Below are positions 4,805-64,000 of a DNA stretch of 64,000 bases, in pieces. This stretch comes from Ampullaceana balthica (Eukaryota; Mollusca; Gastropoda; Lymnaeidae), in assembly GCA_944989445.1 (NCBI GenBank), contig CALYLW010000169.1, positions 1,324,811-1,388,810 on the forward strand, written 5' to 3'. The notes under the pieces are model-generated. The model saw only the letters and a list, made by a program, of their open reading frames with translations. It ran no database searches and was not told the DNA's origin. A program made the position numbers and the translations under genes. Position 1 is the first letter of the stretch, and every line of letters starts with the position of its first letter.

Positions 4805-5336
4805 GAGGGATAGAACAATTGTATGAGATGGATAGAACAATTATTTGAGATGGATAGAACAATTGTATGAGATGGACAGAGCAATTATTTGAGATGGATA
4901 GAACAATTGTATGAGATGGATAGAACAATTATTTGAGATGGATAGAACAATTGTATGAGATGGACAGAGCAATTATTTGAGATGGATAGAACAATTGTAT
5001 GAGATGGATAGAACAATTATTTGAGATGGATAGAACAATTGTATGAGATGGACAGAGCAATTATTTGAGATTGATAGAACAATTGTATGAGATGGATAGA
5101 ACAATTATTTGAGATGGATAGAGCAATTATTTGAGATGGATAGAACAATTATTTGAGATGGATAGAGCAATTATTTGAGATGGATAGAACGATTGTATGA
5201 GATGGATAGAGCAATTATTTGAGATGGATAGAACAATTATTTGAGATGGATAGAACAATTATTTGCGAGGGATAGAGCAATTATTTGAGATGGATAGAAC
5301 AATTATTTGAGATGGATCGAACAATTATTTGAGATG
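4805..5336. repeat. 22-bp minisatellite, about 24 copies
   Basis: Tandem 22-bp units of two subtypes, one with gaacaattgtatgagatggat and one with gaacaattatttgagatggat. The subtypes alternate in part of the array (gtatgag, then atttgag), which points to a higher-order 44-bp unit in the first two thirds. A change of aga to gag (gagcaatt) is the commonest variant. Confidence 0.95.
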
Positions 5337-5471
5337 GGACAAAGACATGTTTAAATATATTTTAAAAAGCCTAAGATAAATGAAGAGCGTGGCTGAACGA
5401 ATAGACTTGGCAGTATGGACGGATCAGCGCCGCATTATTTGAAGGAGTGAACATCGGAGCATGCATCTCTA

Positions 5472-5608
5472 AAGGGCTGCGTTCCTCTACACTCTACACC
5501 CGGAGTAGATAGACACAGGAGGACGTCCTTTAGCGTGCGCTCCTTTGAATACGCAGCAACAAAATTGTGGAACAGTGTTCCGAAATTTTATAAATTGTGT
5601 GACAAGAT
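5472..5608 (+). pseudogene. fragment of a non-LTR retrotransposon reverse transcriptase C-terminus
   Basis: The frame from 5,472 reads VPLHSTPGVDRHRRTSFSVR and continues SFEYAATKLWNSVP. It resembles the conserved tail that follows the reverse transcriptase domain in many LINEs (R-SF-xAAPxLWNSLP). Only about 45 codons remain before stops. It is sandwiched between two large minisatellites, so the rest of the element may have been lost by array expansion. The LINE clade cannot be decided from this piece. Confidence 0.6.
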
Positions 5609-5623
5609 AATTTAAAGAAAAAT

Positions 5624-6783
5624 TTGATAGTGTTAGCACAACGAGCAGCTAGTCTAGCATGGATAGTGTTAGCACAACGAGCAGCTAGTCAAGCATGGAT
5701 TGTGTTAGCACAACGAGCAGCTAGTCTAGCATGGATAGTGTTAGCACAACGAGCAGCTAGTCAACCATGGATAGTGTTAGCACAACGAGCAATTAGTCTA
5801 GCATGGATAGTGTTAGCACAACGAGCAGCTAGTCAAGCATGGATAGTGTTAGCACAACGAGAAGCTAGTCTAGCATGGATAGTGTTAGCACAACGAGCAG
5901 CTAGTCTAGCATGGATGGTGTTAGCACAACGAGCAGCTAGTCTCGCATGGATAGTGTTAGCACAACGAGCAGCTAGTCTAGCATGGATAGTGTTAGCACA
6001 ACGAGCATGTAGGTCTAGCATGGATAGTGTTAGCACAACGAGCATGTTTGTGTAGCATGGATAGTGTTAGCACAACGAGCATGTGAGTCTAGCATGGATA
6101 GTGTTAGCAAACGAGCATGTTTGTGTAGCATGGATAATGTTAGCACAACGAGCAGCTAGTCTAGTATGGATGGTGTTAGTACAACGAGCAGCTAGTCTAG
6201 CATGGATGGTGTTAGCACAACGAGCAGCTAGTCTAGCATGGTTAGTGTTAGCACAACGAGCAGCTAGTCTAGCATGGATGGTGTTAGTACAACGAGCAGC
6301 TAGTCTAGCATGGATGGTGTTAGTACAACGAGCAGCTAGTCTAGCATGGATGGTGTTAGCACAACGAGCAGCTAGTCTAGCATGGTAGTGTTAGCACAAC
6401 GAGCAGCTAGTCTAGCATGGATGGTGTTAGTACAACGAGCAGCTAGTCTAGCATGGATAGTGTTAGCACAACGAGCAGCTAGTCTAGTATGGATGTGTTA
6501 GCACAATGAGCATGTGAGTCTAGCATGGATGGTGTTAGCACAACGAGCAGCTAGTCTAGCATGGATAGTGTTAGCACAACGAGCAGCTAGTCTAGCATGG
6601 ATGGTGTTAGCACAACGAGCAGCTAGTCTAGCATGGATAGTGTTAGCACAACGACCAGCTAGTCTAGCATGGATAGTGTTAGCACAACGAGCAGCTAGTC
6701 TAGTATGGATAGTGTTTGCACAACGAGCATGTGAGTCTAGCATGGATAGTGTTAGAACAACGAGCATGTTAGTCTGGCATGGA
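5624..6783. repeat. 36-bp minisatellite, about 32 copies
   Basis: Copies of a 36-bp unit (gatagtgttagcacaacgag followed by cagctagtctagcatg) run for almost 1.2 kb. Because 36 is a multiple of three, long frames are open on both strands, giving 12-residue repeats such as IVLAQRAASLAW. Several 1-2 bp indels (near 6,010, 6,110, 6,385, 6,495) break these frames, and there is no coding context, so I do not call a protein. A variant with gagcatgt in place of gagcagcta is concentrated at 6,000-6,130 and again at 6,500-6,780. Confidence 0.95.
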
Positions 6784-6789
6784 TATAGA

Positions 6790-7590
6790 AGAGAGCCATC
6801 ATCGTTGTCATTACCACTTCAATTCAATTCATTAATTGCATACAGTTCTTGTTATTTGCACACAACACAATATTCTACACACAAGAATGAACTATTCGCA
6901 CACAGCGCGTCAGTTAACAGGCCGTTAGGTGATAGGACAGGGTTGGAGTGTGTCATGTCACATTATTCATTAGTCCTATTGACAGCAGGAGTCAAATGTT
7001 GGTAACACATTGTCTGCGTGTAGATGGAAGGGGAGGCGATGGTGGTGGCGATATTGAAATGGGGGGTGGGGGTGCTGGGGATGGTCCGAAACATGCCGCC
7101 CGATGATCTGAGAGATTCGTGATGGTTGGTGATACCAAGATTTTTGGATTCCCGTGGCCCGTATAACAATGGCAATGGAATGTGTTCTGCCAAAGTTATG
7201 GAATGCATATACTGAACAAATTCTGTTCGTGTTTGATGTTGTTATTAGGTCATATCGTATTTCCGTTGTTGGTATTATCTATTTTATCTTATCTTATCGT
7301 ATCTTATCTTATCAATTACAGACACTCCTTCTATAGTAAACCTTGTAACTTATAATTTATTTTGTTACTGTATTAGTATTGCGTATAAGTAATATTAAAA
7401 AATAAATTTTAACTACATTAATCATAATTACTTATTTTAATATTAATTTATAATATTTAATTTTCATTGTCGTAAGTGCGAGAAGTCCATAGCCATCTGG
7501 TAGTAGTAGCCTAAGTATCGCGGGGTTGCCAACAGTTAATACTTTAAAAAATTTTTTTTTGGTGGTCGGATAAAAAACAAGTACCGATAT
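6790..7590. other. non-coding DNA with a short atctt simple repeat
   Basis: No gene recognised. A short (tatct)n run lies at about 7,270-7,312, and the stretch after 7,340 is strongly AT-rich. Confidence 0.5.
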
Positions 7591-7593
7591 TAG

Positions 7594-8030
7594 TGCCATG
7601 TATTATGTCTGCTCTTGATATTAGTGCCATGTATTATGTCTGCTGTTGATATTAGTGCCATGTATTATGTCTGCTGTTGATATTAGCGCCATGTATTATG
7701 TCCGCTGTTGATATTAGTGCCATGTATTATGTCTGCTGTTATTAGTGCCATGTATTATGCCTGCTGTTGATATTAGTGCCATGTATTATGTCTGCTGTGG
7801 ATATTGGTGCCATGTATTATGTCTGCTGTTGATATTGGTGCCATGTATTATGTCTGCTGTTGATATTAGTGCCATGTATTATGTCTGCTGTCTATAGGTT
7901 TGCCATGTATTTTGTCTGCTGTCTATAGGTTTGCCACGCATTATGTCTGCTGTCTATAGGTTTGCCATGTATTATGTCTGCTGTTTATAGGTTTGCCATG
8001 TATTATGTCTGCTGTTTATAGGTTTGCCAT
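7594..8030. repeat. 31-bp minisatellite with two subtypes
   Basis: About 14 copies. The first ten carry gatattagtgccatgtattatgtctgctgtt-type units. From about 7,880 the unit changes to a form with tataggtttgccatg in place of tattagtgccatg. The clean switch from one subtype block to another indicates local homogenisation rather than random mutation. Confidence 0.93.
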
Positions 8031-8034
8031 GTCG

Positions 8035-9825
8035 AAACTTCTCTTCAATTCTTCCATTTGTCTCTATCACCTGAAACGCACGACTGAGCCAATTTATTTA
8101 CTCAAAGTGTCGGCAATTTGTTTCCCGGTCGGATATGCTTGATCGGATTTGAATTATTAAATCCATCTTTACTCTTAGATATTGGCTATTGAGGACACAT
8201 TAAGACATACATGGCTCAGATTTAAGAAACTGCATTTTGACTTAATTATGTAAATTAGAAAATCGTTACCCAGAAATGGTCCCGACCCCCCCCCCGCTAC
8301 CATGCTGACGTCCACTACCAGATCACTCCTACATAATGTTAAGAGAATACGTTTAAAGGAAATTGTGAGGTCTTATTTAGCTGTCTCGAGTACCGGATCG
8401 ATATCGTCTACCCACCAATATACCCCACCACGCAGTTTGTTTCCACTTACTGAATGAAAGACACGCCAATGTTTCAATTGGTGAAGTTCTGTTTTGTTAT
8501 TGAAAACACTGCGTCGTCACAAAGATCGCAATACTATCAACCACATAGGACCATAGTGTTATACTCCCTTTAATAAATATACAAACAACAGCATGGTACA
8601 TTTGCATTAAATGCCGGATCTCATATTCTTGTAATACGACATAGTTCTATATTGACTTCGAGGGGTGTGGCATTGAAGCCCGCCCCATTAGTCTACCCTG
8701 TGAAGGTAAGTTTGATATATCCAGGGCCAAGGCATTGGTGCAGAAAGTCCCCGAGGTGTTGGGCACAGCACGGCGAAATTCCGGGCCAAAGTAGCAGCTG
8801 TTAAGATTAAAACAGTAACCGAATAAACATGTACGGACACACCTCCTTTAGACACACAATACTTGAACGGACTCACTCGTCCTAAAAAAAAAGCAATTAC
8901 ACAACAGTCACTGTATAAATGTAGGGACAGAACTCTCGGTAGTAACCGAATGATATGTGGGAATACTTCCCAGAGGCACTACATTAATGCAGTGACGAAA
9001 CTTTTCAAAACCAACTGGTTAAATATAATGCACACATTTTTTTTGTCAATAGCAATCACATCATTTTAAGACCCACCCCTACATACCCTGTTACTGATAC
9101 TGTTGTCTGTTGTTCTACTCTTTGTTGTTCTTTCTTGTTATAAAATTTTAAGAAGTTCCATCTACGATCTAATTCATCACATTTCTGTGTCTAAATTGTC
9201 TCGCTTCTCACATGTTTGTATCAAATTATATAATAATATAAATAAATATTCATAATATATATTTTTCTCTAATAATAAAATAATAGTAATAGAGCCATTT
9301 CTCCTAATTCTATACCTGTGCACTGAAACCTACGTCTACGTTTATAAAATTAGTTCCGACATTTAGATACAGGTAATCACACAATCCATTCCCCCCCCCC
9401 TCCACACGCTTTTCTGCCTTTAAAAAAAATCAGACACATACGTTTAGTGCAAGTAACGATGGACCAAATGAAAAAGGAAAGGTCACCAGGAACCTCTGTT
9501 TACATTGGATACGAACTAATTCCTCAGCAAATCACATGCTCTCTGACGCACTACACACCGCGACGTCGACAGTGTCAACACATTTTATAGCACAATGATA
9601 GGGCGCTTAGGGTTTGGGGGTAGGGTTTGATTTATATTTATTACAAATGACGACAATACCATCCACGATACTAAATAGTTGTACTTATAAATGATCGACC
9701 GATGCCGACTATTAATGTCAAGATAAGTTTTAAATGCATATTTATTTTCATAACTCTGAAATAATTTGAAAAATAAATCAAACCAAAGTTTCACAGAATA
9801 TGAATAAAACTAGGTTGCGCTGGGG
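8035..9825. other. non-coding DNA, no gene seen
   Basis: Short open frames only, none with a recognisable domain or supporting splice sites. A run of C occurs at 8,287-8,295 and another at 9,392-9,401. Confidence 0.5.
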
Positions 9826-11302: not shown

Positions 11303-11942
11303 AGCGTTCAGTTCGTCAAGGGTTAAGTCTGTGGGTGCTGGCAGCGTTCAGTTCGTCAAGTGTTAAATCTGTGGGTGCTGGCAGCGTTCAGTTCGTCAAG
11401 TGTTAAGTCTGTGGGTGCTGGCAGCGTTCAGTTCGTCAAGTGTTAAATCTGTGGGTGCTGGCAGCGTTCAGTTCGTCAAGTGTTAAATCTGTGGGTGCTG
11501 GCAGCGTTCAGTTCGTCAAGTGTTAAATCTGTGGGTGCTGGCAGCGTTCAGTTCGTCAAGTGTTAAATCTGTGGGTGCTGGCAGCGTTCAGTTCGTCAAG
11601 GGTTAAATCTGTGGGTGCTGGCAGCGTTCAGTTCGTCAAGGGTTAAATCTGTGGGTGCTGGCAGCGTTCAGTTCGTCAAGGGTTAAATCTGTGGGTGCTG
11701 GCAGCGTTCAGTTCGTCAAGTGTTAAATCTGTGGGTGCTGGCAGCGTTCAGTTCGTCAAGTGTTAAATCTGTGGGTGCTGGCAGCGTTCAGTTCGTCAAG
11801 GGTTAAATCTGTGGGTGCTGGCAGCGTTCAGTTCGTCAAGGGTTAAATCTGTGGGTGCTGGCAGCGTTCAGTTCGTCAAGTGTTAAATCTTTGGGTGCTG
11901 GCAGCGTTCAGTTCGTCAAGTGTTAAATCTGTGGGTGCTGGC
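11303..11942. repeat. 40-bp minisatellite, 16 copies
   Basis: Sixteen very similar copies of the unit gcagcgttcagttcgtcaag + tgttaaatctgtgggtgctg. Variation is almost limited to two sites, t/g in caagtgtt or caagggtt and a/g in taaatct or taagtct. The high identity implies recent expansion or continuing homogenisation. Confidence 0.97.
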
Positions 11943-12262
11943 ATCCCCGGCAAGGGTTTGAGACTCATCTATCGGGCTTGACCAAACTATTGAATTGTGA
12001 TAGCTGGTTAAAGATGGGTAAGGCTGACGTCGTGTGTTGTGACGGCCCCGTGACGAGGAAGTGACGTAGAGGCTTGGGGTTCCTCACACGCGTGTTGTGG
12101 GAGATTTTAAAAAGATGCGGAGTTAAGTTTGCCTGTTACACTGCCCAAAGTTTACTGCTCAAAGTGCCCGCCTAATCTGTGCGACCAAATCGGACGATCT
12201 CCACATGAAGATGGGAGTACAGGACCATGAACGATGGGTCCACGACTTTGCATTTCATTTCA

Positions 12263-12690
12263 CAGCCAGGGTGGTATAGTCACTTTATGCCAGGGTGGCT
12301 AAGTCAGGTCAGAGCCAGGGTGGCTAAGTCAGGGTGGCTAAGTCAGGTCAAAGTCGGGGTGGCTAAGTCAGGTCAAAGCCAGGGTGGCTAAGTCAGGTCA
12401 AAGTCAGGGTGGCTAAGTCAGGTCAAAGTCAGGGTGGCTAAGTCAGGTCAAAGTCGGGGTGGCTAAGTCAGGTCAAAGTCAGGGTGGCTAAGTCAGGTCA
12501 AAGTCGGGGTGGCTAAGTCAGGTCAAAGTCAGGATGGCTAAGTCAGGTCAAAGTCAGAGTTGCTAAGTCAGGTCAAAGTCAGGGTGGCTAAGCCAGGTCA
12601 AAGTCAAGTTGGCTAAGTCAGGTCAAAGTTAGGGTGGCTAAGCCAGGTCAAAGTCAGGGTGGCTAAGTCTGATCAAAGGCAGTGGAGGTG
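12263..12690. repeat. 25-bp minisatellite, about 16 copies
   Basis: Units of gggtggctaagtcaggtcaa followed by agtca. Copies degenerate toward the right end. Nearly every unit contains aggtcaaagtca, which resembles a nuclear-receptor direct repeat (see findings). Confidence 0.93.
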
Positions 12691-17849: not shown

Positions 17850-18237
17850 TAGATGAACAACTTGAATACTTCCAAGAGAGACTACTTGAATACTTTCAGG
17901 ATAGAGTACTGGAATACTTACTTCCAAGACAGACTACAGGAATATTTAATTCCAAGGAAGACTACTTGAATACTTCCAAGAGAGACTACTTTAATACTTC
18001 GAAGTCAGACTACTTGAATACTTTTTAGACTGACTACTTGAATACTCCCAAGACAGACTACTTGAATACTTCCAAGACAGACTACTTGAATACTTTTTAG
18101 ACTGACTACTTGAATACTTCCAAGACAGACTACTTGAATACTTCCAAGACAGACTACTTGAATAGTTCCAAGACAGACTACTTGAATACTTCCAAGACAG
18201 ACTACTTGAATACTTCCAAGACAAACTACAGGAATAG
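17850..18237. repeat. 24-bp minisatellite, about 16 copies
   Basis: Units of gactacttgaatacttccaa + gaca. Copies at the left edge are the most divergent and those at 18,050-18,225 the most uniform. The multiple-of-three unit gives open frames in both directions, which I treat as by-products. Confidence 0.93.
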
Positions 18238-18365
18238 TTTTAATACAGACTGCCGTGTGTATCAAATGTGTAATGATATTTATATACGGACACATATTGC
18301 TATTTTTAGAAAGGGGTGGGGGCGTATGTAACATATTATGGCCTGGAAGTTTTACAACTTACTTC

Positions 18366-18935
18366 TGACTTAAGTGTACATCTTATCATTGACTTAAGTG
18401 TACATCTTATCATTGACTTAAGTGTACATCTTATCATTGACTTAAGTGTACATCTTATCATTGACTTAAGTGTACATCTTATCATTGACTTAAGTGTACG
18501 TCATATCATTGACTTTAGTGTACATGTTATTATTGACTTTAGTGTACATCTTATCAAGGACTTAAGTGTACATGCGCAGCTTATCAATGACTTAAGTGTA
18601 CATCTTATCATTGACTTAAGTGTACATGCGCAGCTTATCATTGACTTAAGTGTACATGCACAGCTTATCATTGACTTAAGTGTACATGCGCAGCTTATCA
18701 ATGACTTAAGTGTACATCTTATCATTGACTTAAGTGTACATCTTATGATTGACTTTAGTGTAAATCTTATTGACTTCAGTGCACATCTTATCATTGACTT
18801 TAGGGAACATGCGCAGCTTATCATTGACACTTAAGTGCACATCTTATCATTGACTTTAGGGAACATGCGCAGCTTATCATTGACACTTAAGTGTACATCT
18901 TATCATTGACGTAAGTCTTAAGTGTACGGCTTATT
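18366..18935. repeat. 24/30-bp minisatellite with CTTAAGTG core, about 22 copies
   Basis: Basic unit gacttaagtgtacatcttat + catt. A longer form inserts gcgcag (acatgcgcagcttatcatt), giving a 30-bp unit. The two forms alternate between 18,550 and 18,720. Almost every unit keeps cttaagtg intact, while other positions vary more. Confidence 0.93.
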
Positions 18936-19147
18936 ACTTGTACCTTAATCCTGTTGAAACCATTTATTTACGGACATATCACAGTGAGTATGAGATCAGG
19001 ATTAATCCGGCCGGAGCCTGCCTGTCATGGCAGTCAACGTGTCCCACATCTCCCCTTGATTATTGAAAGGCAGACTGGGCATTAGCACATGTATTTATGC
19101 ATCTTGACGGTGTGGTATGGGGGATGAGGTATAGCGTTCGTGGAACC

Positions 19148-19337
19148 AGAGGCGTCACTAGTGTTGGTATCACCCAGTGCGGTAGCTCATGGTGTCACTC
19201 CCTCACGACTTACCCCATAGACCTCCCTCGAGTCTGCCAGTGCCAAATAAGAGGAACACACAGAATTTTGCGTTTTGGTGTCACCCCTTGTGGTGGTGTC
19301 ACCCGGTGCGGTCCGCACCTCCATAGTGGCGCCTCTG
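19148..19337. mobile_element. TIR MITE, copy A (hAT-like)
   Basis: Starts cagaggcgtcactagt and ends agtggcgcctctg, giving a terminal inverted repeat. Internal ggtgtcacc and ggtatcaccc motifs are repeated. The same family occurs in opposite orientation at 60,090-60,242. No target duplication is visible for this copy. Confidence 0.7.
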
Positions 19338-19872
19338 CATGTAAGTAATAAATCCATCCTCTGCCAGTGCTAGTGTGTCCAGAAATTTGGAACTTTCTTA
19401 AATAGTTTAGAAATTACCCCCCCTCCCCTAATTGAACCCGTGACCGAGGACCCCTGATCCATTAATGAGCGGTCCTCAGAATGTAGTTTTAGTTGATGAT
19501 CATGTTATATTTAATTTACTAACAATGCCACTAGTTGCTTGTTATTAAATCAAAAAAATCTGATCTATTATTGACAAACCACGTCTTGACTCCATTAATT
19601 GTGCTGTGTGGTGCTACAGAAAAGTACTCAACTTTTCGAGGGGAGGGGTTCATAGTCAACTTTTAGAACCGCTGCTGTGCTTATAATTGGTGCACATTCA
19701 ATTAATAACACGCGCGTGCTTGTGTGTATAAGGTTGCTTTTTAATGATGAGTCGCTATTTAGAAGGGGAAAAAAACCTCTAAGAATGTTTAGAAAAGTTC
19801 AAAGTTCAGTGAAGGAGATGGGAGGGATGTAAAAAAGCTAAAGAGGCAAACACTGTCAATTTAACTGTGTAT

Positions 19873-20045
19873 CTGTCAGTGGATCTGGTCAGTGGATGTG
19901 GTCAGTGGATGTGGTCAGTCGATGTGGTCAGTGGATGGGGTCAGTGGATGTGGTCACTGGTCAGTGGATCTGGTCAGTGGATGTGGTCAGTGGATCTGGT
20001 TGGTGGATGTGGTCTGTCGATCTGGTCGGTGGATCTGTTCGGTGA
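19873..20045. repeat. 12-bp minisatellite (agtggatgtggtc type)
   Basis: About 13 short units of tcagtggatgtgg/tcagtggatctgg type with drift at the right-hand end. It lies about 260 bp upstream of the first recognised ATPase coding exon. Confidence 0.85.
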
Positions 20046-35300: not shown

Positions 35301-38300
35301 AAAGAGTGTAACCTGCTCGTAAGCCGACCCCCCAAAAATAAAAGGACAGCGTAAACAAAATGGTACACAGTTTTTTAAAACTAAAAGCTAAATCGGTCAT
35401 TATGATTGTTTACTTTGTACTAGTACTACCTATCTTTGTCCTTGTGTTCTTTGTTAGGCAAGAGTTACCGGTATTTAAAAAAAAATTCTTTGGTAAACAG
35501 TGGCGAAAGCAGGTACATTAAAATTTGTTGTTGAAAACAAAATTTGTAAAACAATTTATTAAAACATTCACTAAAAAAAAATTTAAAAAGAAAAGAAAAG
35601 AAAAAAGGTAAGTGCAGATGTTTAATAATATTTTATAGCTTCTGGTAGAGCAATAGAATCTTTTAGAATGTAGAAATGGACCTTGATGATCTACATTACC
35701 AACACCGATTATCGATGTACATGCAGAAATCACCTATGATCCGCTCGTAAGCCGACCCCCCTACCTTTTCCCCTAGATTTTGTTCAAAAAAAGGTCGGCT
35801 TTAGAACAATTTTTATTTGATTACTTTTTCCATATGAGGGGCTAGGTGCAAGTCTAGGTAAGAGCATCTGTCTTAAAATTGTGGAAGCTGCTTATTTCTT
35901 GAAATTATTATTTTTCTCACTCTCTTCTTGATTATAACTTTTGGGGACAGAGATGGTGTATTTTATTTGCCTGCTTTGTGGAGGTAATTCTATTGTTTTA
36001 TGCAATGTTGAATTTCATTCTTGCAGTTGTCTTTAAAAATGTGGATCTTTTCTATAATACAAAAACATATCTCTCTTGTTGCTTCATTTAAGTCTTGACC
36101 AAAATTACATAAAATACTCTGACTGTCCTTCAATCTCATATAAAAATGTATTTATATATTCTTCCCTTTTTTGCAACTTCCACAACAATCAAAATATACA
36201 TTGGAAGTATTAAGTACTTAGCAACAAGCAGAATACCGGTACCTGAAAAAAAAAGTGAGCAATCATTATTTTAAAAATAAACATTTCTTCACAGCTGACA
36301 GGAGGAGATGTTGGCATTGTCCGTCAGTTCCCATTTTCCTCAAGTCTGCAGAGGATGTCTGTTATAACCCGACGTCTTGGAGTCAACAACTTTGACCTGT
36401 ATGTGAAAGGTTCACCCGAGATGATATCAAGCCTGAGTAGACCTGATACTAGTGAGTAAATAAACAAAACAACTTTTTTTAGGGATTTGACGTAATGAAT
36501 AAACCTCTCACTGTTACAAATGTGTTACATGAAGTGATGAGTTGTAGAAATCCTTAGCGGAATGTTCATTTTTATATGTAGCCTACTGTATAATAATAAT
36601 CATAATGAATATAATTCTCCTTTCTTTTTCTCTAGTATCCATTCATGGAAAATATCCAATAACCATGTGGGCATAAAATTAATTACAACTGTTTTCTTGA
36701 TGACATTTCAATTTGTAATACATGTCATCTGTTGAAAGTAACAAGATGGGTTTAATTAGTGAAGCTAGTTGGGTCTGGCTTAAGAGAAAGAACATTTTTA
36801 TTGACACCAGCATCACCAAAAGTTCTGAGAGTGGACTGAGTCTCAATACTCAGATGAGATTAGTTATGTTGAATTCATTTCTGATTTTCAGTTCCCTTTG
36901 ACTTTCATCAAGTCCTGCAGACCTACACACAACACGGCTACAGAGTGATTGCCCTTGCATGGAAACCATTGCCTGACAAATTGAAATTTGTCAAAGTACA
37001 AAGGGTCAGCAGGTGAGAATTATTTATCAGTGCTGTCTGTGTCAATGAAATCTTGTCCGTCTCAAAGTGTCAATAATCATTGTCAGTATTTCTCATTGTG
37101 CCAAAGAGTTCTAGTCGTTCTGTATCAATGTGGATCAAATCTTGTCAGTCTCTCTCATGTTGTCAATGAATTCTTATCAGTCTGTCTTATTGAACACTTT
37201 GGAAAGCAAAGCCTATATTTAAAAGTATTTAAAAGGAATAATATTTTGTTGTTTTTAAGAATCAAGATGATTAATATTACTTATAAAATATATAAGACCC
37301 CCTTTCCAGTCCATGACGGACTATGGGGCAAGTGATGTAGCGTTCACAAGTTTTTAGCCACCACTAACGAGCAGGGGAATGTGTGGCCAGCACAATGCCC
37401 CAGGGGCCTTGCCAGTACCTGGGCTCGAACCCGGGACTCGGGATCTGCCTCGGATCGATAGTCCAGTGCGCTACCACTTAGACCATCGCGCCCCTATAAC
37501 ACATATACGATTTTTTTTGTTGTTGAAAAATGCTAACAATGCTCAAAGGAGTCTAATATAAAATTTTAGGGAACAAGTTGAGAATGAACTTATCTTCCTT
37601 GGCCTTATTGTCATGGAGAACAGACTTAAGCCACAGTCTGCACCTGTCATATGTGAATTAAATGAAGCTGACATTAGAACCATCATGGTGACAGGTAAAC
37701 CCTTACCATTAAAAAACTCTTACCATCACAAACTCTTACCATCACGTACTCTTACCCTTACAATGGAATATAGAAGAAAAAAGATAATAAAATATACTAA
37801 GCCATATTTTTTCCATTTTTTTATCCTTTGTTTTAGTCTTCGTTGAATTTGCCATTTTTGAAATTACTATGCAGCTTTTATTTTTCTTCAAAAATATGGA
37901 ATTTAGCAAAAACTATTTTTAACATCATTTTTATTTATTTATTGCCTTTCCAGGAGATAATATGTTGACAGCTCTCAGTGTTGCCAGAGAGTGCAAGATG
38001 GTGGACAAGACTGACCGTATTATCCTAGTCCAAGCTTACCCACCAACCACTGGACAGTCCGAGGTGACTTTGGAGTTTGTTTATGCCGATGACAGTAATG
38101 CTAAAGTGGAAGAGGTTTTCGCAATGGTATGTAAAATCAAATGTCGAAATATAAAGCTGCATTTAAAAAGACATAAGTTCTTAAGAGATACTCATAATAA
38201 GAATAGAATGTCACATTAGCAAATTTTTATTAAGCTGGATGCTAATGTCACATAGCCGAGTGGGCGTGACCTTATTAACTCTGTCTCACAATAAATCTAT

Positions 38301-41300
38301 CAGGCACTGTTTGAATAATATAACTTTTAATCACAACTTCTATTTACATTAATTTACATCCAGTATATCTCACGTCCGTAAAATAGAACCACACACTCAG
38401 TCGCCATGTTTTATTCTCCCTCGTCATGTGATCACTAACAATTTCCTCTCTCACGTGACATTACCCCCATGCAAACAAAAAAAAATGTTTATGCAATATA
38501 ACATTTTTTATCTTACTACAATTCCTTTAAGCTGTATGTCAATCTGACATATGTAACTTCCTTATAATAGATATTAAAAATTATCTAATAATCCACTCAT
38601 GGTCTTTTTAAAAACTGAAAAATGTCATCACACATGATGATCCTGAAAATAGATTAACATATAAGCCATCAATAAGAAATCTTTATACAATATAATCAAT
38701 GATGCTTATGTCTCTTTGCCAACTATGTTGTATACTCTGGTACAACACATAATACCTGTTAGATAATCAATTTGCTATCAATATTCATAATCATAATAAT
38801 ATGAGTTCAGCATAATCTGAAATAACAATCTGTGCGAAGACATCACCAGTCTGCTTGCACTGAAATAATAAATATGAACTTTTAATATAATTGTAATATT
38901 GTTACATTGAAATTAAATTGAAATGCATTTTATTAGTCATAATATTTACTATTAGGTATATCCTCCAGTGGAATTTATAAATCACTTCTTGTCCTGTATC
39001 TTGTACATAATAATGTTGTTAAAATTAAAACAGTTTTTAATTCAATTATTTTTGAATTCACATAATGTCCGTGTTTGAAATCATTCTGCTTAAAATGTCT
39101 GCAAGCACATTGTCTTTTCCTTTGACAGATTTGATATCGAATTTGTAATCCGCTAATAGCATTGTATTGTTCAAAAATAGTTATTCTTCATCTGACGAGT
39201 ATGAATTCAAATAGATGGGCTTTCAATGCTTCTTCAGACTAATAAATGTTGAATAGTTCACCAACTACGATCACGATTATGTCCATTCACAATATTAATT
39301 GTAGCATCTTGAATAAGTCGCTTAGCTTTTGAAATGTTATTTCTGTTTCCTGATAATTCAATAGAATTTCGATCAGATGAGTCACCATCACGAGACACCT
39401 TTCTTCGAAATCCACTGTCTGCTTCAATGTCTCTGATTCTGCTTCCTCTATGACCAATGATTCTTCCCACTTCATGTGATTTCACACAAATGATTTCAGA
39501 CTCTATAGTACCATCTTTATGTCTGCTACTATGGTCTTCATCCTTTTTATCATATATTTGATTGTCAATAGTGGCTATAGTGTCACAAGTTCTTAATTCT
39601 TCTTGATTCATATTTCTTCTATTTCTATAATTCATGTCTTGGTTTACATTCCTTCTCCATGGTTGATCAAAATTTCTTATTTTGGAAACAAAATTATATT
39701 TTCTTCTCCATGTTCTTCTGTCTTGATTATAATCTCTATGTCTGGAATTATAATTATATTTGTCTCTCCATGATTTTCTTTCTTGATTATAACTGCCTCT
39801 CCATGGTTGTCTATCTTGAACATTATCTCTATATCTGTTTCTCCATAATTTCTCTGCTGCATCTCCATGCAATGGATTTTTATTTTCTAGTTTTGATGGA
39901 AATTTTATTTGCTTGAGGCGTTTTGACCATTCTCCAATTTCTTCATCACTCTCTTCGTCTTCATCCATCAAGCCAAACATTTCCTCCTCTTCCTCATCTT
40001 TATTTTTGTTGTAATCACCCAGATCAATTTTATTTCTTGAATCGGTAAATTCACTAATCACATTTGTAAAAATCTCCCCAACATCTTCTTGAGATTCATC
40101 TTCCAAATTATTTTCAGCCTTGTTACTCTCATTGTAATCTTTCCTTTCACTTCGTTTTAACTTCATATCTCTCAAATATATTTGTAATTTTAAATTATCA
40201 TTTTTCAGTTGTTCGAGTTCTCTTCTTTCACTTCTTTCTTCAGCTCTTTGTTCTCTTTCAATGATTTGTTTTCGATGTTGATCTTCTTTTTCCTCAGCTT
40301 TTCTTAGCTTATCTTTTTCTTCAGCAATTCTTTCTTTTTCTTCAGTAATTCTCACTTTGTCTTCTACAAATTCTCGTAAGTCTGTGCCACTCAAACCAAA
40401 TTCTTTTGCTATGGCCGTGAATTTTTCGTAGTGATCCATTCTTGATTCAATTATATGTGTTCTTTAATCTTTTATTTCCTTTATCATTTTATTCACACTG
40501 CTGCTTAGTGTTTTTCTCTAACTAGTTCACGCTTGTTTCTATACAGTTTTGTTTTGAATCAACACACTAGGCTTGTACCACTTGACCTGGATATCAGTGT
40601 GTCACTGCACCTGAACCAAATTGTTTCACTGCTGTAATGTTTCGTGACCTTGACTTTGACCTGGATGCGTTGACCTCGACTTGTTATTTAAATTAATTCT
40701 GTGCACGTTTTTACTTGTCCACCATATTGGAAAAAATGATACTTGATGTCAAATTTTCTCTATTTGTATTGAATCAGACAAGAAATTTCTTTTTAATGTT
40801 TCACAAACCTCCTTTTAATAGAATAAACAGTCTCCTCCTGAAACACGGGGTATTTCTCAAACTCAAACTGGCACTATCTTCAAAAAATTGAGTTTATTTC
40901 GAATGTTTTCAATTTCACAATCACAATGTCAATGTTAACTCCTTCTATTTCTATTTTCCTCTGACACCATATACTATATGTTTAACTTCTGACACCATAT
41001 ATCTCACATAGCCGAGTGGGCGTGACCTTATTAACTCTGTCTCACAATAAATCTATGAGGCACTGTTTGAATAATATAACTTTTAATCACAACTTCTATT
41101 TACATTAATTTACATCCAGTATATCTCACGTCCGTAAAATAGAACCACACACTCAGTCGCCATGTTTTATTCTCCCTCGTCATGTGACCACTAACAATTT
41201 CCTCTCTCACGTGACAGCTAAGACAATGGTGTTATGACAAGCAGGAAATTGAAAAATTAGAGAACAAATACAAAATATATGTGGTTGTTGATGAAGAAAA

Positions 41301-44300
41301 AAAAATTAAAGTTTAAAAAAATAACAAAAAATGTTTATTGCTAGCTTCCAGTCATTTCTGATGGATTGAAATGGATTTAGCACAGGTGCATAGACAAAAA
41401 AGTTACAATCACTTACAAAATCCTGTTTTAAAATTATCAATCCAAACACAGCATCACAAATCATTTGTTAAATAGAATTTGATAACATCAATAATTACAA
41501 ACTGATGATGTGAAATACATTTTCATTCACTTTAGGAAAATCAGAGAATCCAAATAGATGAGGACAGCCAAAGATTTCACTTTGCACTGACAGGAAAAAC
41601 CTGGGCAGTCATCCGCCAACACTGCCCGGATGTTCTCAACAAGATTGTTGTCAAAGGAGTCGTCTTTGCTCGAATGGGACCTGACCAGAAAGGACAGCTG
41701 GTTGAAGTCTTACAAGATATTGGGTAAGTTAAAATTTAATTTTTATTTGACATATGATTTAGTTTCCAGGGAGAATTTAAAAAAATTGTATCCTAAGCCT
41801 TAAATATGTGAAATTTAAACTTTATCTTATTGAAAATGCTGTTATAATTTTTGTTCCCTTCCGTCACCTCATTGTAGATACTATGTGGGAATGTGTGGCG
41901 ATGGTGCTAACGACTGTGGAGCCCTCAAGACTGCCCATATGGGAATTTCCCTGTCTGAGGCAGAGGCGTCAGTTGCTTCCCCTTTCACGTCCAAAACTCC
42001 TACCATTGAATGTGTTCCAAGTGTCATCAAGTAAGCACACCCACCCACCGACCCCCCCCACCCCACTTTGTTATAGGTGTAGAAAAATATGTTTCAGCCT
42101 AACCGTCGGTGATTATAATTCTGCAGATTAAATTTGGGGTGTGCAGATGATGGTCACTGATGTTTGGTGATTAATGGGTTTAAGACAAAAAAGTTTGATT
42201 CAAGAAAAAAAAAGAAATCTTAATCAATGACCATGAATATTCACATAGATTTAAATATCATCAGTGATGGTTTTCCAAGATGCTATTTGATCTAAGAAAG
42301 TTATAAATTATCCTTCCTCAGAGAGGGGAGAGCTGCTCTAGTGACTTCCTTTGGTGTGTTCAAGTACATTGCTTGCTACAGTCTCACTCAATTTACATCT
42401 GTGCTTCTTTTATACTGGGTAAGTAAGTTGTGTTTACACTGTTGGGCATACGTTAATACTTGGTCAATAATATAGAAAACATTGGGTGATTTTAGTTAAA
42501 GCTATAAATTTGACTAATCTATCTCACTGTCAGGAAAAATCTTAAAGGAAGAGAGGAAAGGAATCAATTGAAAATTTGTATTTTGATTTGTTTTCAAGTC
42601 TAAAAAGAATGAAAATGTTATAGTTAAAAGTGACTGAATTTAATAAAGTTTTGGAAGTCAAGATAGAATATGAAAATTATTAACTTTGATTACTTGATCT
42701 AAAAAATGGTTAAATATGGTGGTTTTGTCACAGTTTTGTCACTCATTTATATGAGTATATGTAAAAAAAAACAACCAACTTTTAATACAGTTAATTTTTA
42801 AACTAGAACAATGAAAATGGTTTTTCTTATTTCCAACCCTCAACAAATTAAAAAAATCCAGATTGGTGCCAATATTACTGATGTTGAGTTCCTGTATGTT
42901 GATTTCTTCATCATTACCACTTTCAGCATTACATGTAAGTTTGATAGGAGCACATCTATTAATCAGTGTTTATCTGTTGTAGTGTTTACCAAAATCTTTG
43001 TCTTTCTACTGTTGTCAGTCAGATTTCTAACAATACAACTTGCTAAAAGCAATTAGTATATTTGAAATAGATAATAGGAGATTGTGAAGTATATTTGAAA
43101 TAGATAATAGGAGATTGTGAAGTATATTTGAAATAGATAATAGGAGATTGTGAAGTATATTTGAAATAGATAATAGGAGATTGTGAAGTATATTTGAAAT
43201 AGATAATAGGAGATTGTGAAGCATATTTGAAATAGATAATAGGAGATTGTGAAGCATATTTGAAATAGATAATAGGAGATTGTGAAATATATTTGAAATA
43301 GATAATAGGAGATTGTGAAGTATATTACTTGGTTTAGAAGGGCTATGCCATCAAAGTTATTTTAATTATTGCAGTTATTTCCAAGTTATAATTTAATAAC
43401 TTTTGTAATTTTACTACTTTGCTCTTCTTCCTCGAACCGTTTCCATATATGAATTATATGATACCAATGTGTTATGCAATTAAAATTTGATTTAAAAAAA
43501 AAGATGAACAATTATCTATTTAAATTTAGTCAGCAGAACCGGTCCTTACGATGAACTGGTCAGAGACAGACCTTTGGTCAGTCTTCTCAGTCCCAGCCCC
43601 ATTTTTGGAATAATTGCTCAGTTGATTCTCGTCATCTCTGCCCAGACATTCATGTTTCTTCATGTCAGGCAACAACCATGGTAAGCAATATATTGAATCA
43701 TGATTGCTGTTGGTCTGTTTATTATTAATTTTAAACAACTTCTGGATCTGATTTTTTTTCATTGTGTAAATTAATTTATTTGATACTTTTAATAACCTTT
43801 TTTTTCCTTCTAAAATGCCTAACTGTATGTCTCATATTTGAACAAGGTTTGTCCCATTTCTGGAGAATGATGATGATGATTACACATGTCATGAGAATGC
43901 AGCTGTGTTCCTGATGTCTGCATACCAGTACATCATATTGGCTGTCACATTTGCGAAAGGAGCACCATTCAGGAAATCTATATTCACCAATTGTAAGTAA
44001 TCCCTCAAGCTCTGAAGCTCATGGTTCTGTTACATAGAAAGTTGGGGGGATGTATATTTACAATACACAGGGTTCCTTTTTTTTTAGTGTCCGATAGCTA
44101 AAAGCAGGCACTGCCAGTTGGAATAACATTTAGTATAAATGAAGACCAATTTATAAGATTAAATGAGTCTTGAATCAACTTCAACTGTTGTACTCCCTGA
44201 TTTTGTTCCTTTGAGAGAAATTTCTGCTTATTCAAGATGTAATAAGCCAGATTTTCACAGCAACAACATTTTTGGGTGTTAGATACCTTTTAAAGAATAC

Positions 44301-58294: not shown

Positions 58295-58470
58295 CTTGTC
58301 CCTGGGGTATGGGGGGAAGTATAAGCCTGATTGCACTGATGCCTTGTCCCTGGGGGTATGGGGGACGAGTAAGCCATGAGTCTGATTGCACTGATGCCTT
58401 GTCCCTGCGGGTATGGGGGACGAGTAAGCCATGAGCCTGCTTGCACTGGACAGACTGATGCCTTGAGCCT
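58295..58470. repeat. about 60-bp minisatellite, 3 copies
   Basis: Units containing tgccttgtccctgggggtat and gggggacgagtaagccatga, with the third copy degenerate. Confidence 0.8.
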
Positions 58471-58555
58471 GGAATGTACTTTTTAAAAATTTGCTGAACT
58501 CTGAACTTGCTATTATTGATTATCAATAGAAATAAACATGAATGTTAACGAAAAG

Positions 58556-58795
58556 CTATTCACTGTGTGTTGTCTGTGTTTAATTCTATTCACTGTGCGT
58601 TGTCTGTGTTTAAGTCTATTCACTGTGCGTTGTTTGTTTAATTCTATTCACTGTGTGTTGTCTGTGTTTAATTCTATTCACTGTGTGTTGTCTGTGTTTA
58701 ATGCTATTCACTGTGTGTTGTCTGTGTTTAATTCTATACACTGTGTGTTGTCTGTTTAATTCTATACACTGTGTGTTGTCTATGTTCAATTCTTG
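58556..58795. repeat. 30-bp minisatellite, about 8 copies
   Basis: Units of ttcactgtgtgttgtctgtg + tttaattcta. One or two units have lost 4 bp (ttgtttgttta), which shifts the frame and shows the array is not coding. Confidence 0.92.
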
Positions 58796-58889
58796 TCACA
58801 TATTTAACGCGTTAGAGTTGTGTACACAAATCAGCAAGGTCATCCCTCCCTCTATCTCAATCAAACCCTCCATCACTTAATTACACGCC

Positions 58890-58962
58890 CCAGACCTCAT
58901 TCAACTCCCCACTTCCACTTCATTCAACTCCTCACTTCCACTTCATTCAACTCCCCACGCCC
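58890..58962. repeat. 22-bp minisatellite, 3 copies
   Basis: cattcaactccccacttcca-type units in three copies. Confidence 0.75.
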
Positions 58963-59514
58963 GCTTTCACCTCATCGGTCACATGCTGTAGGTTTCATAA
59001 TGTTGAACAAGTTGACGAGAACAGGAAAGGTGTCTTCATTAGAGGTGCTCAAAATACATACGCTTGGCATAGAAGAGAACACACCTGGTACACACTTCCG
59101 GCGCACACACCAGTCACACATACCCGGTACACACACCTGGGTACTCATGAGTTTAGAGTTGTGGGAGGTGATCACTTACATCATTTTGAGATTTCTAAGA
59201 CACCCCATTCTTGAAGAATCCCTTGTGATGTCATTCAAGTTGTGAAAGATTATGACCCGACAAAAAGTTGGACATCATTCGTAGTTTGTTTGCCCGCTGT
59301 AAAATACGCTCTCGAGTTCAAGGCTCAATTTATTAACCAGCGAGCTTTTTTTTTAGCTGTGTCCCAATACGAGGAAGAGATTGACGAACGTCAAAATAAC
59401 GGCGTGAGCTTGAACATAGTCTACAAAATACAACACACACGACATAAATGAAATGTGAAACAAATGCCCATTTATTTAAGGAAATAATGTATTTCTACTG
59501 TACGAGTTCATTTG

Positions 59515-59820
59515 ACAGGGTATGGCCATCAGCATGACATGTAAACATATACTCGAACTGGTATGGTCATCAGCATGACATGTAAACATATAGGCTACTC
59601 GAACTGGTATGGTCATCAGCATGACATGAATTTATTGACATGTAAACATATACTCGAACTGGTATGGTCATCAGCATGACATGTAAACATATACTCGAAC
59701 TGGTATGGTCATCAGCATGACATGAATTTATTGACATGTAAACATATACTCGAACTGGTATGGTCATCAGCATGACATGTAAACATATACTCGAACTGGT
59801 GTGGTCATCAGCATGACATA
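59515..59820. repeat. 41-bp minisatellite with 57-bp variants
   Basis: Copies of tatggtcatcagcatgacat + gtaaacatatactcgaactgg. Some units have an extra tgaatttattgacat, making a longer form that alternates with the short one. Confidence 0.9.
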
Positions 59821-60089
59821 TAAAAATTCTAATCGTATCTATTGAAGCTAAACCAAAGTACTATCGAAGGAACAGTTCATCAGTTGAATGGTTCCTCACA
59901 CACGAGTCTAAATAATTGTTCCATTGAGTCTCATTGAGGTTATGACTGGTTCACATTTTTTAAGTCACTGGTTGTGACGGCTTTCAAAAGTGACTTAGTG
60001 CCTTTCTTGTCAAACTTCTGCTGCTGACGAGATGATGACGTTGTGATCCATATATTCGCGTCTAAAAGATACCTCAGATGCTTTGGGGT

Positions 60090-61674: not shown

Positions 61675-61795
61675 AAATGTCACATGCTCGAGTAGTCGCA
61701 TGGTTGAACTGTCACATGGTCAAGTAGTCACGTGGGTTAGCTGTCACGTGGTCGAGATGTCACGTGATTGAGGTGTCACGTGGTCGAGTAGTCCT
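61675..61795. repeat. gtcacgtggtcgag-type short repeats
   Basis: Degenerate 13- to 20-bp units with repeated tcacgtgg or tcacatgg cores, directly downstream (in the sense of transcription) of the receptor stop codon at 61,776 and overlapping its last codons. cacgtg occurs at least four times. Confidence 0.7.
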
Positions 61796-62662
61796 TGGTC
61801 GTGACGATGAGGGTGGCGTGCGACTTCTGACTTCTGTCGAAAACAGTCGCCGTCGGTCTGTAGAAGGTCGTGGTGATCTTCCCTGGGACTCTGCTGGCAC
61901 TGGTCAATGACGACTTCATCATGTCCAACAGAGCTGTCCGGAAATCCCTGGACATGATGCAGTACAGAAGGAAGTTGATGCCGTTGTTGATCAGGGCGAC
62001 AACATCCATGATGTCCCCCAGCGGCAAGTAGACGTCCTGGAAAAAGTTGGGTATGGTCGCCGACAGAACTATGAGAACCGCTTGCGGGAACTCGGTGACG
62101 AGGAACAGTGTGATGACCACCAGCAGCATCCGAGTGGTTCTCGAGTTGTCCTGGTGGCGGCTCTGCTGTCTTCGAACACCAGCGGTCGGCTTGGCGGCGG
62201 TTCGCTTGGCGGGCGGGGTAACGGGTGGCACGTTGAGTTTTACGGTCGGCGAGGGAGGGTGGCGCTGCTTCTTGCAGTTTGCGCACAGAAGTAAGTCTTC
62301 GCTCTCAGAGCCACCGTGTCTGCTGCTGCTGTTGTCCTTGCTGCGGTCAGCGTCGTCCTCGCTGACCCTTGGGGTCAGGGGGTTGCTCTCGTGGTGTTGG
62401 GACGAGTGCTCGGGCGAGGCGTCCAGCTGAGTCTGACCGCACAGGGAGTCGGACGCCCGGCTCTTCTCGTGCCTGGCCAGCATGCGGATGTTGGTCCTGA
62501 GCGTCTTGACCAGCAGGCCGACGTAGACCACCATGAGGATGCATGGCAGGAACTTGGCCAGAGCGCTGTGCACCCACAGGTTCAGCTGTGTGACAAGGCG
62601 GACCTTGGGCGTCCCAAGATACAGCTCTGTGGTCACAAAGTACAGGATGGTCACGTTGGTTT
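61776..62662 (-). CDS. FMRFamide/myosuppressin-type peptide GPCR, last exon (TM5-TM7)
   Basis: Open minus-strand exon of about 295 codons. An acceptor (aaccacacag) at 62,663 gives an entry in mid-codon before ETNVTILYFV. TM5: LNLWVHSALAKFLPCILMVV. TM6: TRMLLVVITLFLVTEFPQAV. TM7: GDIMDVVALINNGINFLLYC, followed by IMSRDFRTALLDM (helix 8). The TEFPQ in TM6 and NNGINFLLYC-MSRDFR in place of NPxxY are features of the FMRFamide/myosuppressin (DMSR) and sex-peptide receptor group of rhodopsin-like receptors. The loop between TM5 and TM6 is about 110 residues, long for this group and Ser/Pro-rich. TM1-TM4 exons are beyond the window on the high-coordinate side. Expected to sit in the plasma membrane and couple to G proteins. 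Confidence 0.88.
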
Positions 62663-64000
62663 CTGTGTGGTTAGATGAATACAAAAATAGATTTAAAGAG
62701 GATTCCGTTTGTTTTTTAGTTTTTGTTTTTAAAAGCAAAAAAGAATGAAAAATACAAAAGTGTCACTTGTTTTGTATTCAAATTAATGCCGGATTTTAAG
62801 TTGAATTTTTAATAGAGCCAAAGTTTAGTTATTTACAGTAAGTTATTTCTAGTTAAAATGACGAAGTTTGGGGAAAGATACCTATCTCATCTATCTATAA
62901 CAGAAGCTCCTTCTTGACAGAAGATTGTTGCGTCCTATGCTTATCCATGTTTTTTCCCTAGTCTTGCATTTTTAATTAAAGTTGTGAATTTTGATAGCGA
63001 GTTGGTTTTCCTGGTTTGATCAGACAACACATACCACGCTCGAATTCCAGACGGGAAGAATGAGAATTCCCAATGTCTTTGCTGTTACGTACGGAATAAG
63101 AAAAGTGTTTTTATCCCTATGTCTATCTGATGGTTGTATTAAGTAATCAGCAGCTAGTAGCTAGACTAAATAAACGTTGAGCCTGAATGCGCGTTAACGA
63201 AGAATGGTGTATAAAATTGACCAATGGTACCAAACACAAGCAGTTTTCTGAGTCCGCTATGTATGGAGACCAAATATAGGCCTGTTGTCAGAAGTGTGGC
63301 GCGCAAAAAAAAGAAAATTTGAGCAGTACTTAAGGGATATAAGAGCTTTGTTGAAGATCATGGTTTAGTTAAGCCCGATATTTTTTCAACAATTTATAAG
63401 AGATGTTTGTGTGCCTTCGTAGCTATGTGATCCTGTTGTATTTAAAAACCACCTTCTGTAAAATGTATATTTACATAAAAGTCCGTAATTACCAGTACCC
63501 CTTATGTTCTCTCGGGTGATTGCTAAATGTTTTTCACAGTGGTCTTTTAATTCACCCCATTATAATTATATCAATAAATGTAATAATATATTTATATGCT
63601 ACAATTAAATAATAATAATACCACCCTTTAAATGGGACTGAAAATCCTTTAAACTAATCAGGATCTATATCTTTGTGTGCCTATACACATATTTGAACAC
63701 GTTTGCTTAGAATCATACTTGTTGGAATATGATTATGTCTCATTTTTCATTTAAAGATAATACAAGAGTATAATTTTAAGGTCCTCTCTTATCTATCGTA
63801 ATATTTAATTTGGATTTTTTTCCTTCTTGCTCCCTCTGAGCCGCACATTATAAAAACGAAAAACGTGTAACTAGGTTCATTATTATTATGTGGGCACGTC
63901 TGCTCGGCTCCCAGTGAGAAGCAAGGGAGGTAATGGAGTGGACATTTTCTACTTCCTCCCCAGGAGTCACCCCTGTTGGTTGTGATTGAAAAGGGATATT
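62663..64000. other. intron of the receptor gene, no other gene seen
   Basis: Between the receptor's last exon and the window edge I find no exon for TM1-TM4 on the minus strand and no other coding frame on either strand. Confidence 0.5.

Follow-up and report, generated by a model that had tools for sequence, protein, structure and literature searches.

Gag-SAS10 elements of Ampullaceana balthica: an LTR retroelement family probably arisen by capture of a host mRNA inside a KH-bearing Gag

In the Gag-onc fusions of acutely transforming retroviruses, host mRNA sequence stands in frame with Gag and helper functions move the product in trans. The element that we describe here resembles them as an in-frame fusion of host mRNA and Gag that would likewise be moved in trans; it differs in that its family gives no sign of a gain of function, has no env and is known from sequence alone.

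Host-gene capture by LTR elements is already known. Maize Bs1 is an LTR retroelement with transduced host gene segments (PMC13317346, PMC5408686). In LTR-mediated retroposition, which PMC5408686 attributes for animals to Tan and coworkers, an mRNA packaged by chance is copied through template switching at microsimilarities, leaving a partial copy between LTRs. TR-GAG elements are LTR elements whose one ORF encodes GAG (PMC8704663). As far as the accessible portions of these sources describe their systems, the present element is like Bs1 in being an LTR element with host-gene segments in a hybrid ORF, and unlike it in being from an animal, in the host gene concerned, in a capture that replaces capsid and knuckle inside Gag, and in a Gag that carries a KH domain. 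With LTR-mediated retroposition, as outlined in that account, it shares an mRNA piece placed between LTRs via switching at short similarities, whereas the chimera here is a repeat family, found in nine places, and the capture lies in frame inside Gag. The LTR-gag-LTR build without pol genes, which is found in relatives in this genome, is that of TR-GAG elements in the available part of their description; the differences are the animal host, the SCAN/Gypsy-type capsid family, the presence of KH and, in the copy studied here, the loss of capsid and knuckle. The case is thus an unusual and very readable form of a known process, in a KH-bearing Gag family. In the open-licence literature we found no description of a Gag-SAS10 family, nor of a Gag in which capsid, knuckle and KH occur together; absence from that literature is weak evidence in both cases, and the latter combination seems to be undescribed.

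The window element and its reading frame

The window, a stretch of 64,000 nucleotides from A. balthica to whose numbering all coordinates below refer unless a contig is named, holds on its minus strand a short, complete LTR element (38246-41216) flanked by a GCTAA duplication. Its features, in the direction of transcription, are as follows.

41217..41221, no strand: target-site duplication GCTAA, second side (sequence)
41002..41216, minus: 5' LTR, 215 bp, beginning TGTCACG and differing from the 3' LTR at 3 sites
40986..40997, minus: primer-binding-site-like TGGTGTCAGAAG, immediately internal to the 5' LTR (sequence)
39258..40439, minus: Gag-SAS10-Gag/KH fusion ORF, 393 codons, ATG start, intact
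40176..40439, minus: N-terminal coiled coil of Gag, aa 1-88, homologous to P0001, P0002 and P0014
40167..40178, minus: 5' junction of Gag with the SAS10 5' leader, at a common GATTT(G)A-like stretch
39837..40166, minus: captured SAS10/UTP3 N-terminus, aa 92-201, from the SAS10 start codon onwards; exons 1 to 5, spliced
39833..39848, minus: 3' junction, SAS10 TCATGGGGAAACA with Gag repeat TCATGGAGAGACAGA (sequence comparison)
39540..39836, minus: Gag repeats rich in Arg/Trp/Tyr/Asn, aa 202-300; swapping of Gag modules has its boundary here
39288..39506, minus: KH domain of type I, aa 312-384, its loop reading GHRG (profile, structure model)
39061..39224, minus: possible pol remnant (RNase H end), in a stop-interrupted frame
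38461..38472, minus: polypurine-tract-like GCATGGGGGTAA, bordering the 3' LTR (sequence)
38246..38460, minus: 3' LTR, 215 bp
38241..38245, no strand: target-site duplication GCTAA, first side (sequence)

The LTR length of 216 in the repeat-finder output is 215 plus one base of the target duplication. Immediately internal to the 5' LTR (about 40950-41000), the primer-site-like TGGTGTCAGA is present twice within ~40 bases.

A first-pass annotation made from the letters of the window had recognised the paired 215-bp LTRs, the GCTAA duplication and an intact 393-codon frame, and all three were confirmed, with 3 differences between the LTRs and an ATG start. The N-terminal coiled coil and the Arg/Trp/Tyr/Asn repeats that it described are likewise present, and the zinc knuckle that it reported as lacking is indeed absent from the ORF, which has 2 Cys in total and no zf-CCHC match in Pfam. 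Its overall description, an LTR retroelement with a Gag-like protein ending in KH, is right, and it survives the refutation that the annotation set for it, lack of a KH match or of the KH segment in other copies: the KH matches, and the C-terminal part recurs in many genome copies. What it overlooked is the SAS10 segment at residues ~92-201, where the protein is not Gag.

The 393-codon frame is the sole long frame of the element, and the N-terminus of its product is charged and coiled-coil-like. No RT was found in the element. It consists of an LTR pair and a single long ORF without pol genes, the gag-only arrangement of TR-GAG elements, followed by a broken possible RNase H remnant; the complete GAG domain of that class is missing from the window copy, which has SAS10 in place of capsid and knuckle, and is found in relatives, which have both. 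The broken stretch 3' of the Gag stop is seen in the window element and four relatives and resembles the terminal part of a Gypsy RNase H, by what we take to be an RNase H motif. A 40-residue piece of it from the window had no Pfam match, and the corresponding piece of the related locus L021 had one weak unrelated match. Among PDB entries, the 40-residue piece gave one weak match, to residues 551-575 of the 577-residue 'enzymatic polyprotein' 8r0s (E=0.065). By its sequence, the stretch is possibly a pol remnant, the end of RNase H.

The SAS10 segment, its donor gene and its copies

A protein search with the window protein returned 14 relatives, five of them Gag-like (P0001-P0004, P0014) and nine of them SAS10/UTP3 proteins with 51-66% identity; the seven named SAS10 proteins are all from gastropods (Arion, Bulinus, Physella, Elysia and Plakobranchus). 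Arion SAS10 aligns to window residues 116-202 at 66% identity, and the host SAS10 start codon corresponds to window residue 92. The Gag relatives carry capsid and CCHC knuckle at this position. Residues ~92-201 are, on these alignments, the N-terminus of host SAS10/UTP3 and not Gag. The captured piece has no Pfam match, and the Sas10 C-terminal domain (PF09368) is absent, only the N-terminal ~110 residues having been taken up.

The window's own assembly (1.097 Gb, 3363 contigs) was then searched with Physella SAS10 (P0007). Sixteen matches resulted: 7 ordered exon matches on contig C121, where the exons of the donor SAS10 gene lie, and 9 intronless N-terminal places. Eight of these nine also match the Gag-fusion ORF, and the ninth, on C1921, has Gag frames. 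Between window and host, 70 of 82 bases are identical in exon 1, 5' leader included, 67 of 73 in exon 2, 124 of 129 in exon 4 and 26 of 29 at the start of exon 5; exon 3 is likewise aligned, and the alignments stop at splice sites. The host exons, when joined, form one open SAS10 start, from which the window copy differs by 24 bases over 110 codons. Because four host introns (about 6 kb, 207 bp, 230 bp and 717 bp, lengths from coordinates) are missing from the element, it was a host mRNA that appears to have been captured; from the exon alignments, a spliced host mRNA is the plain source of the SAS10 piece. Intronless host exons between two LTRs, with the donor gene in the same genome, are Bs1-like features of this element.

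The fusion recurs in the genome. The SAS10-bearing places number nine, on nine contigs, which makes a single assembly artefact unlikely, and they represent at most eight insertions, since C1835 and C1921 share flanks and are counted as one. These two contigs hold one fusion insertion within the same flanking minisatellite, as haplotype copies or through duplication. Six fusion insertions combine an LTR pair with 5-bp duplications that differ from one another (GCTAA, CGATC, GTGGG, ATGGC, ATTAC and, in C50, an imperfect ATGCG/ATGCA); that multiple insertions each have a target duplication is a further Bs1-like feature. LTR identities range from 92.8 to 99.1% across seven fusion places. Where the 5' part is present, in seven copies, the full frame is kept solely in the window copy: C50 is open over 380 codons with its end lost, and the remaining 5'-complete copies have stops or frame breaks. 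The copies on C976 and C423 are 5'-truncated, at different points. Given this single full frame and these truncations, the fusion family may be dying.

The junctions carry the argument for a common origin. GATTTRA is common to Gag (CTACAAATTGATTTAGAG) and to the leader of SAS10 (AAAGTAGATTTGATAAATATG) where they meet at the 5' junction; at the 3' junction, the Gag repeat TCATGGAGAGACAGA is nearly identical to TCATGGGGAAACAAA in SAS10 exon 5, over the stretch TCATGGRGARACA. To judge from this comparison, each junction falls within a short stretch of similarity, the pattern expected from template switching. The 3' junction is identical in all nine copies and the 5' junction in all seven that reach that point, and the same junctions in nine places argue for one capture followed by spread. 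Three differences from the host are common to all 9 copies and four more to all 7 covering them; since the host gene may itself have changed after the capture, the case for one capture rests more strongly on the junctions. In the same copy pairs, synonymous divergence is much higher in the coil than in the SAS10, repeat and KH segments, which indicates that the copies recombined, so that 'one capture' applies to the SAS10 segment only.

We therefore regard the element as very probably a non-autonomous LTR retrotransposon that arose by host mRNA transduction, with capsid and knuckle exchanged for a SAS10 piece. Legible in the aligned sequences are a fusion from which four introns are missing, junctions that agree among all copies reaching them, and multiple insertions, each with its own duplication. 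The parent would have been an LTR element of this genome without intact pol whose Gag comprised coiled coil, capsid, CCHC knuckle, Arg/Trp/Tyr/Asn repeats and KH. In a particle that also contained SAS10 mRNA, minus-strand synthesis would have switched from the Gag repeat to the similar stretch of SAS10 exon 5, and the spliced mRNA would have been copied up to about 15 bases upstream of its start codon. A second switch would have returned synthesis into gag, leaving ~110 SAS10 residues, in frame, where capsid and knuckle had been. We infer this order of jumps, and also that the fusion was mobilised in trans, packaged by the Gag of its relatives and reverse-transcribed by their Pol. The capture of a host mRNA in an animal can thus be read here almost to the base, with the donor, four missing introns, both switch regions and the spread all in one genome.

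What the SAS10 piece does in the fusion was assessed from its substitutions. From host to window it has 1 synonymous change and 23 amino-acid changes, where about 18% synonymous would be expected (p=0.11). Across nine copies, 66 distinct changes comprise 7 synonymous, 57 nonsynonymous and 2 stops, which fits neutrality under a substitution spectrum derived from the same data (p=0.15). In these nine copies no purifying selection is visible in the SAS10 part and positive selection is not shown; most simply, the part would be a passenger that evolves as if unconstrained. A functional fusion, in which the acidic SAS10 N-terminus directs the coil to the nucleolus or the SSU processome, or in which the fusion protein hinders its relatives, has in its favour an uninterrupted frame spanning both junctions in the window copy, indels of 3 and 9 bases within the SAS10 part elsewhere in the family, and retention of the fusion by a family that has multiplied. 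Mpp10 also binds Utp3/Sas10 (PMC5558966), at a site that the accessible text of that study maps on Mpp10 and not on Utp3. Both substitution counts speak against such a role, and we consider it improbable.

Relative to the window copy, dN/dS of the coil is 0.05-0.48 in 11 of the 13 copies with a coil and above 1 in C1921 and C510; for fusion copies, the values are 0.05-0.31 in five of six and 1.21 in C1921 (29 codons). The distinct changes in the SAS10 part include 25 G>A and 4 C>T. With 93 G against 34 C in this stretch, the G>A excess is modest, and strand-biased G-to-A editing was set aside.

The parent Gag family and the KH domain

Matches in the snail's own genome number at least 131 for the window protein and at least 168 for P0002, some copies giving several; these are lower bounds, with 105 of 6339 and 77 of 13261 candidates scored, respectively. 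Five gag copies with both LTRs (C566, C2852, C376, C510 and C2036) measure 3.2-3.9 kb; in C566, C2852, C376 and C2036, gag is present between the LTRs and no pol was seen among the listed frames of at least 130 codons. Genome copies with capsid, CCHC and KH exist, and P0001-P0004 have zf-CCHC and KH_1 matches within one protein, every one of these matches being below Pfam cut-offs. P0016 has a SCAN match (E=1.5e-8) and is related to P0002 (E=9.8e-33); in Pfam, SCAN is below cut-off in P0001 and not listed in P0002. With a model of P0002 (mean pLDDT 63), Foldseek found the PNMA2 capsid (E=1.3e-4) and, more weakly, dArc1 (E about 0.01), and the model shows KH strands and helices at its C-terminal end. 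A SCAN-type capsid as in Gypsy/Metaviridae (Mag- or Gmr1-like) is present in the relatives only.

Comparison of group A with group B copies points to exchange of Gag modules. In six A-B pairs, the third-position difference is 0.35-0.59 over P0002 residues 100-340, 0.23-0.47 at 340-380, 0.00-0.13 at 395-440 and 0.05-0.27 from 440 to the end, and group A 3' UTRs are 79-81% identical to that of the window element. The drop in third-position difference indicates that Gag 5' halves were exchanged on a common 3' half, and places the boundary within the repeats or close to them, the region to which SAS10 was joined as well. Over the first 36 residues the difference is 0.47-0.53 in four A-B pairs and only 0.15 and 0.22 in two pairs with C510, a sign of further mixing. 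The sequence pattern suggests that the Arg/Trp/Tyr/Asn repeats may favour template switching.

In the relatives L020 (on C2852) and L022 (on C376), the capsid was lost by a different deletion, which joins the coiled coil directly to the stretch preceding the knuckle; taken with the SAS10 capture, this means that the capsid was lost at least twice in the family. An element can lose its capsid and its RNA-binding knuckle and yet spread, presumably on borrowed particles, so that what a non-autonomous LTR element minimally requires becomes testable. Elsewhere in the genome, three gag copies follow one another head to tail at 3680 bp spacing (G000 C2152:88686-97773), which suggests a tandem LTR-gag-LTR-gag array. 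At locus L019, a LINE-like element with endonuclease and RVT_1 matches (6291-9633, minus strand) lies ~2.3 kb downstream of a gag-only copy.

The KH domain with its GHRG loop, reported in the first-pass annotation, proved genuine. Pfam KH_1 matches residues 316-378 of the window protein (E=2.2e-11; 43.8 bits vs a cut-off of 21.5), and the KHSRP KH domain matches the protein in phmmer (E=5e-5). An AlphaFold2 model of the KH piece, with a mean pLDDT of only 67, has the order strand-helix-helix-strand-strand-helix, and its top Foldseek matches are KH domains of FUBP1, hnRNP K and PCBP (E about 1e-4, prob 1.0). A KH_1 match above cut-off, a GXXG loop and the beta-alpha-alpha-beta-beta-alpha order identify a type I KH. 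The fold and loop are those of FUBP1, hnRNP K and PCBP; the window KH differs from them in being single, in its place at the C-terminus of Gag and in its near-neutral sequence change.

That change was measured in 16 copies, skipping codons with stops, gaps or frame breaks and excluding copies with half a domain or less aligned. For the KH, dN/dS comes to 0.73 among the 5 copies of group A, 0.82 among the 11 of group B and 0.87 between the groups. The corresponding values, in the same order, are 0.09, 0.25 and 0.11 for the capsid (3+3 copies), which is also present in 6 of the 16 copies used for KH; 0.26, 0.24 and 0.14 for the first 36 Gag residues (5+7 copies); and 0.57, 0.45 and 0.38 for the knuckle region (5+5 copies). 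The GXXG loop is lost in all five group A copies (GCVL or GCLL); of 10 window-type copies with the loop in their alignment, 8 retain it, the exceptions being C60 and C155. The KH is a real fold inherited across the family, with a sequence that is weakly constrained at best.

The annotation had gone on to propose that the element captured a host KH module, which may have taken over RNA packaging from a lost zinc knuckle. The KH is real, the knuckle is absent from the window copy, most window-type loops retain GXXG, and the alignment of one related Gag, P0015, ends before the KH. The C-terminal part, however, recurs in many genome copies, and the KH parts of P0001-P0004 are 62-66% identical to that of the window, so that a KH private to this element, captured by the window copy itself, was rejected. 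Relatives combine knuckle-like and KH-like matches, albeit below Pfam cut-offs, and by their sequences the KH did not replace the knuckle, which left along with the capsid when a piece of SAS10 mRNA would have taken the place of both. Packaging by the KH is unsupported, given dN/dS values far above those of the capsid and the loss of GXXG throughout group A. We hold this proposal to be very doubtful.

Where the KH itself came from is a separate matter. P0015, a Gag 66% identical to P0002, matches the family through the repeats to 'TIDS', diverges ~20 residues before the KH and has no KH match. By this alignment, the KH may have been added in the gag-only line, or an altered copy may have given rise to P0015; since P0015 stops matching at this point, a host origin of the KH is possible. 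A protein search for a donor with region 305-393 matched P0003 and P0001 only, among candidates ~216-688 residues long.

A processed SAS10 pseudogene put into a gag element by LINE machinery, without a template switch, is scarcely credible: a LINE-like element does lie near one related locus, but the piece has no poly(A) and no 3' half of SAS10, stops within exon 5 at a Gag-like stretch, and replaces rather than interrupts capsid and knuckle, in frame at both ends.

For mRNA transduction by template switching, the reading that we prefer, a broader version can be offered tentatively, as a possibility that we would not yet call probable. The family would have taken up host modules serially, first a KH exon after the Gag repeats and then SAS10 for capsid and knuckle, with the repeats acting as a built-in template-switch hotspot both for trading Gag halves and for picking up host mRNA. 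The KH would have joined where P0015 ends differently and where pol may once have followed.

Elsewhere in the window, part of a 7TM receptor gene lies at 61776-62738 on the minus strand (Pfam 7TM_GPCR_Srw, E=2.9e-11; 7tm_1, E=7e-7, just below cut-off). Minisatellite arrays are many (4808-8020, 11303-12682, 17860-20044, 43055-43326 and 58295-59824), among them a 36-bp unit repeated 32 times at 5626-6785 and a 40-bp unit repeated 16 times at 11303-11943.
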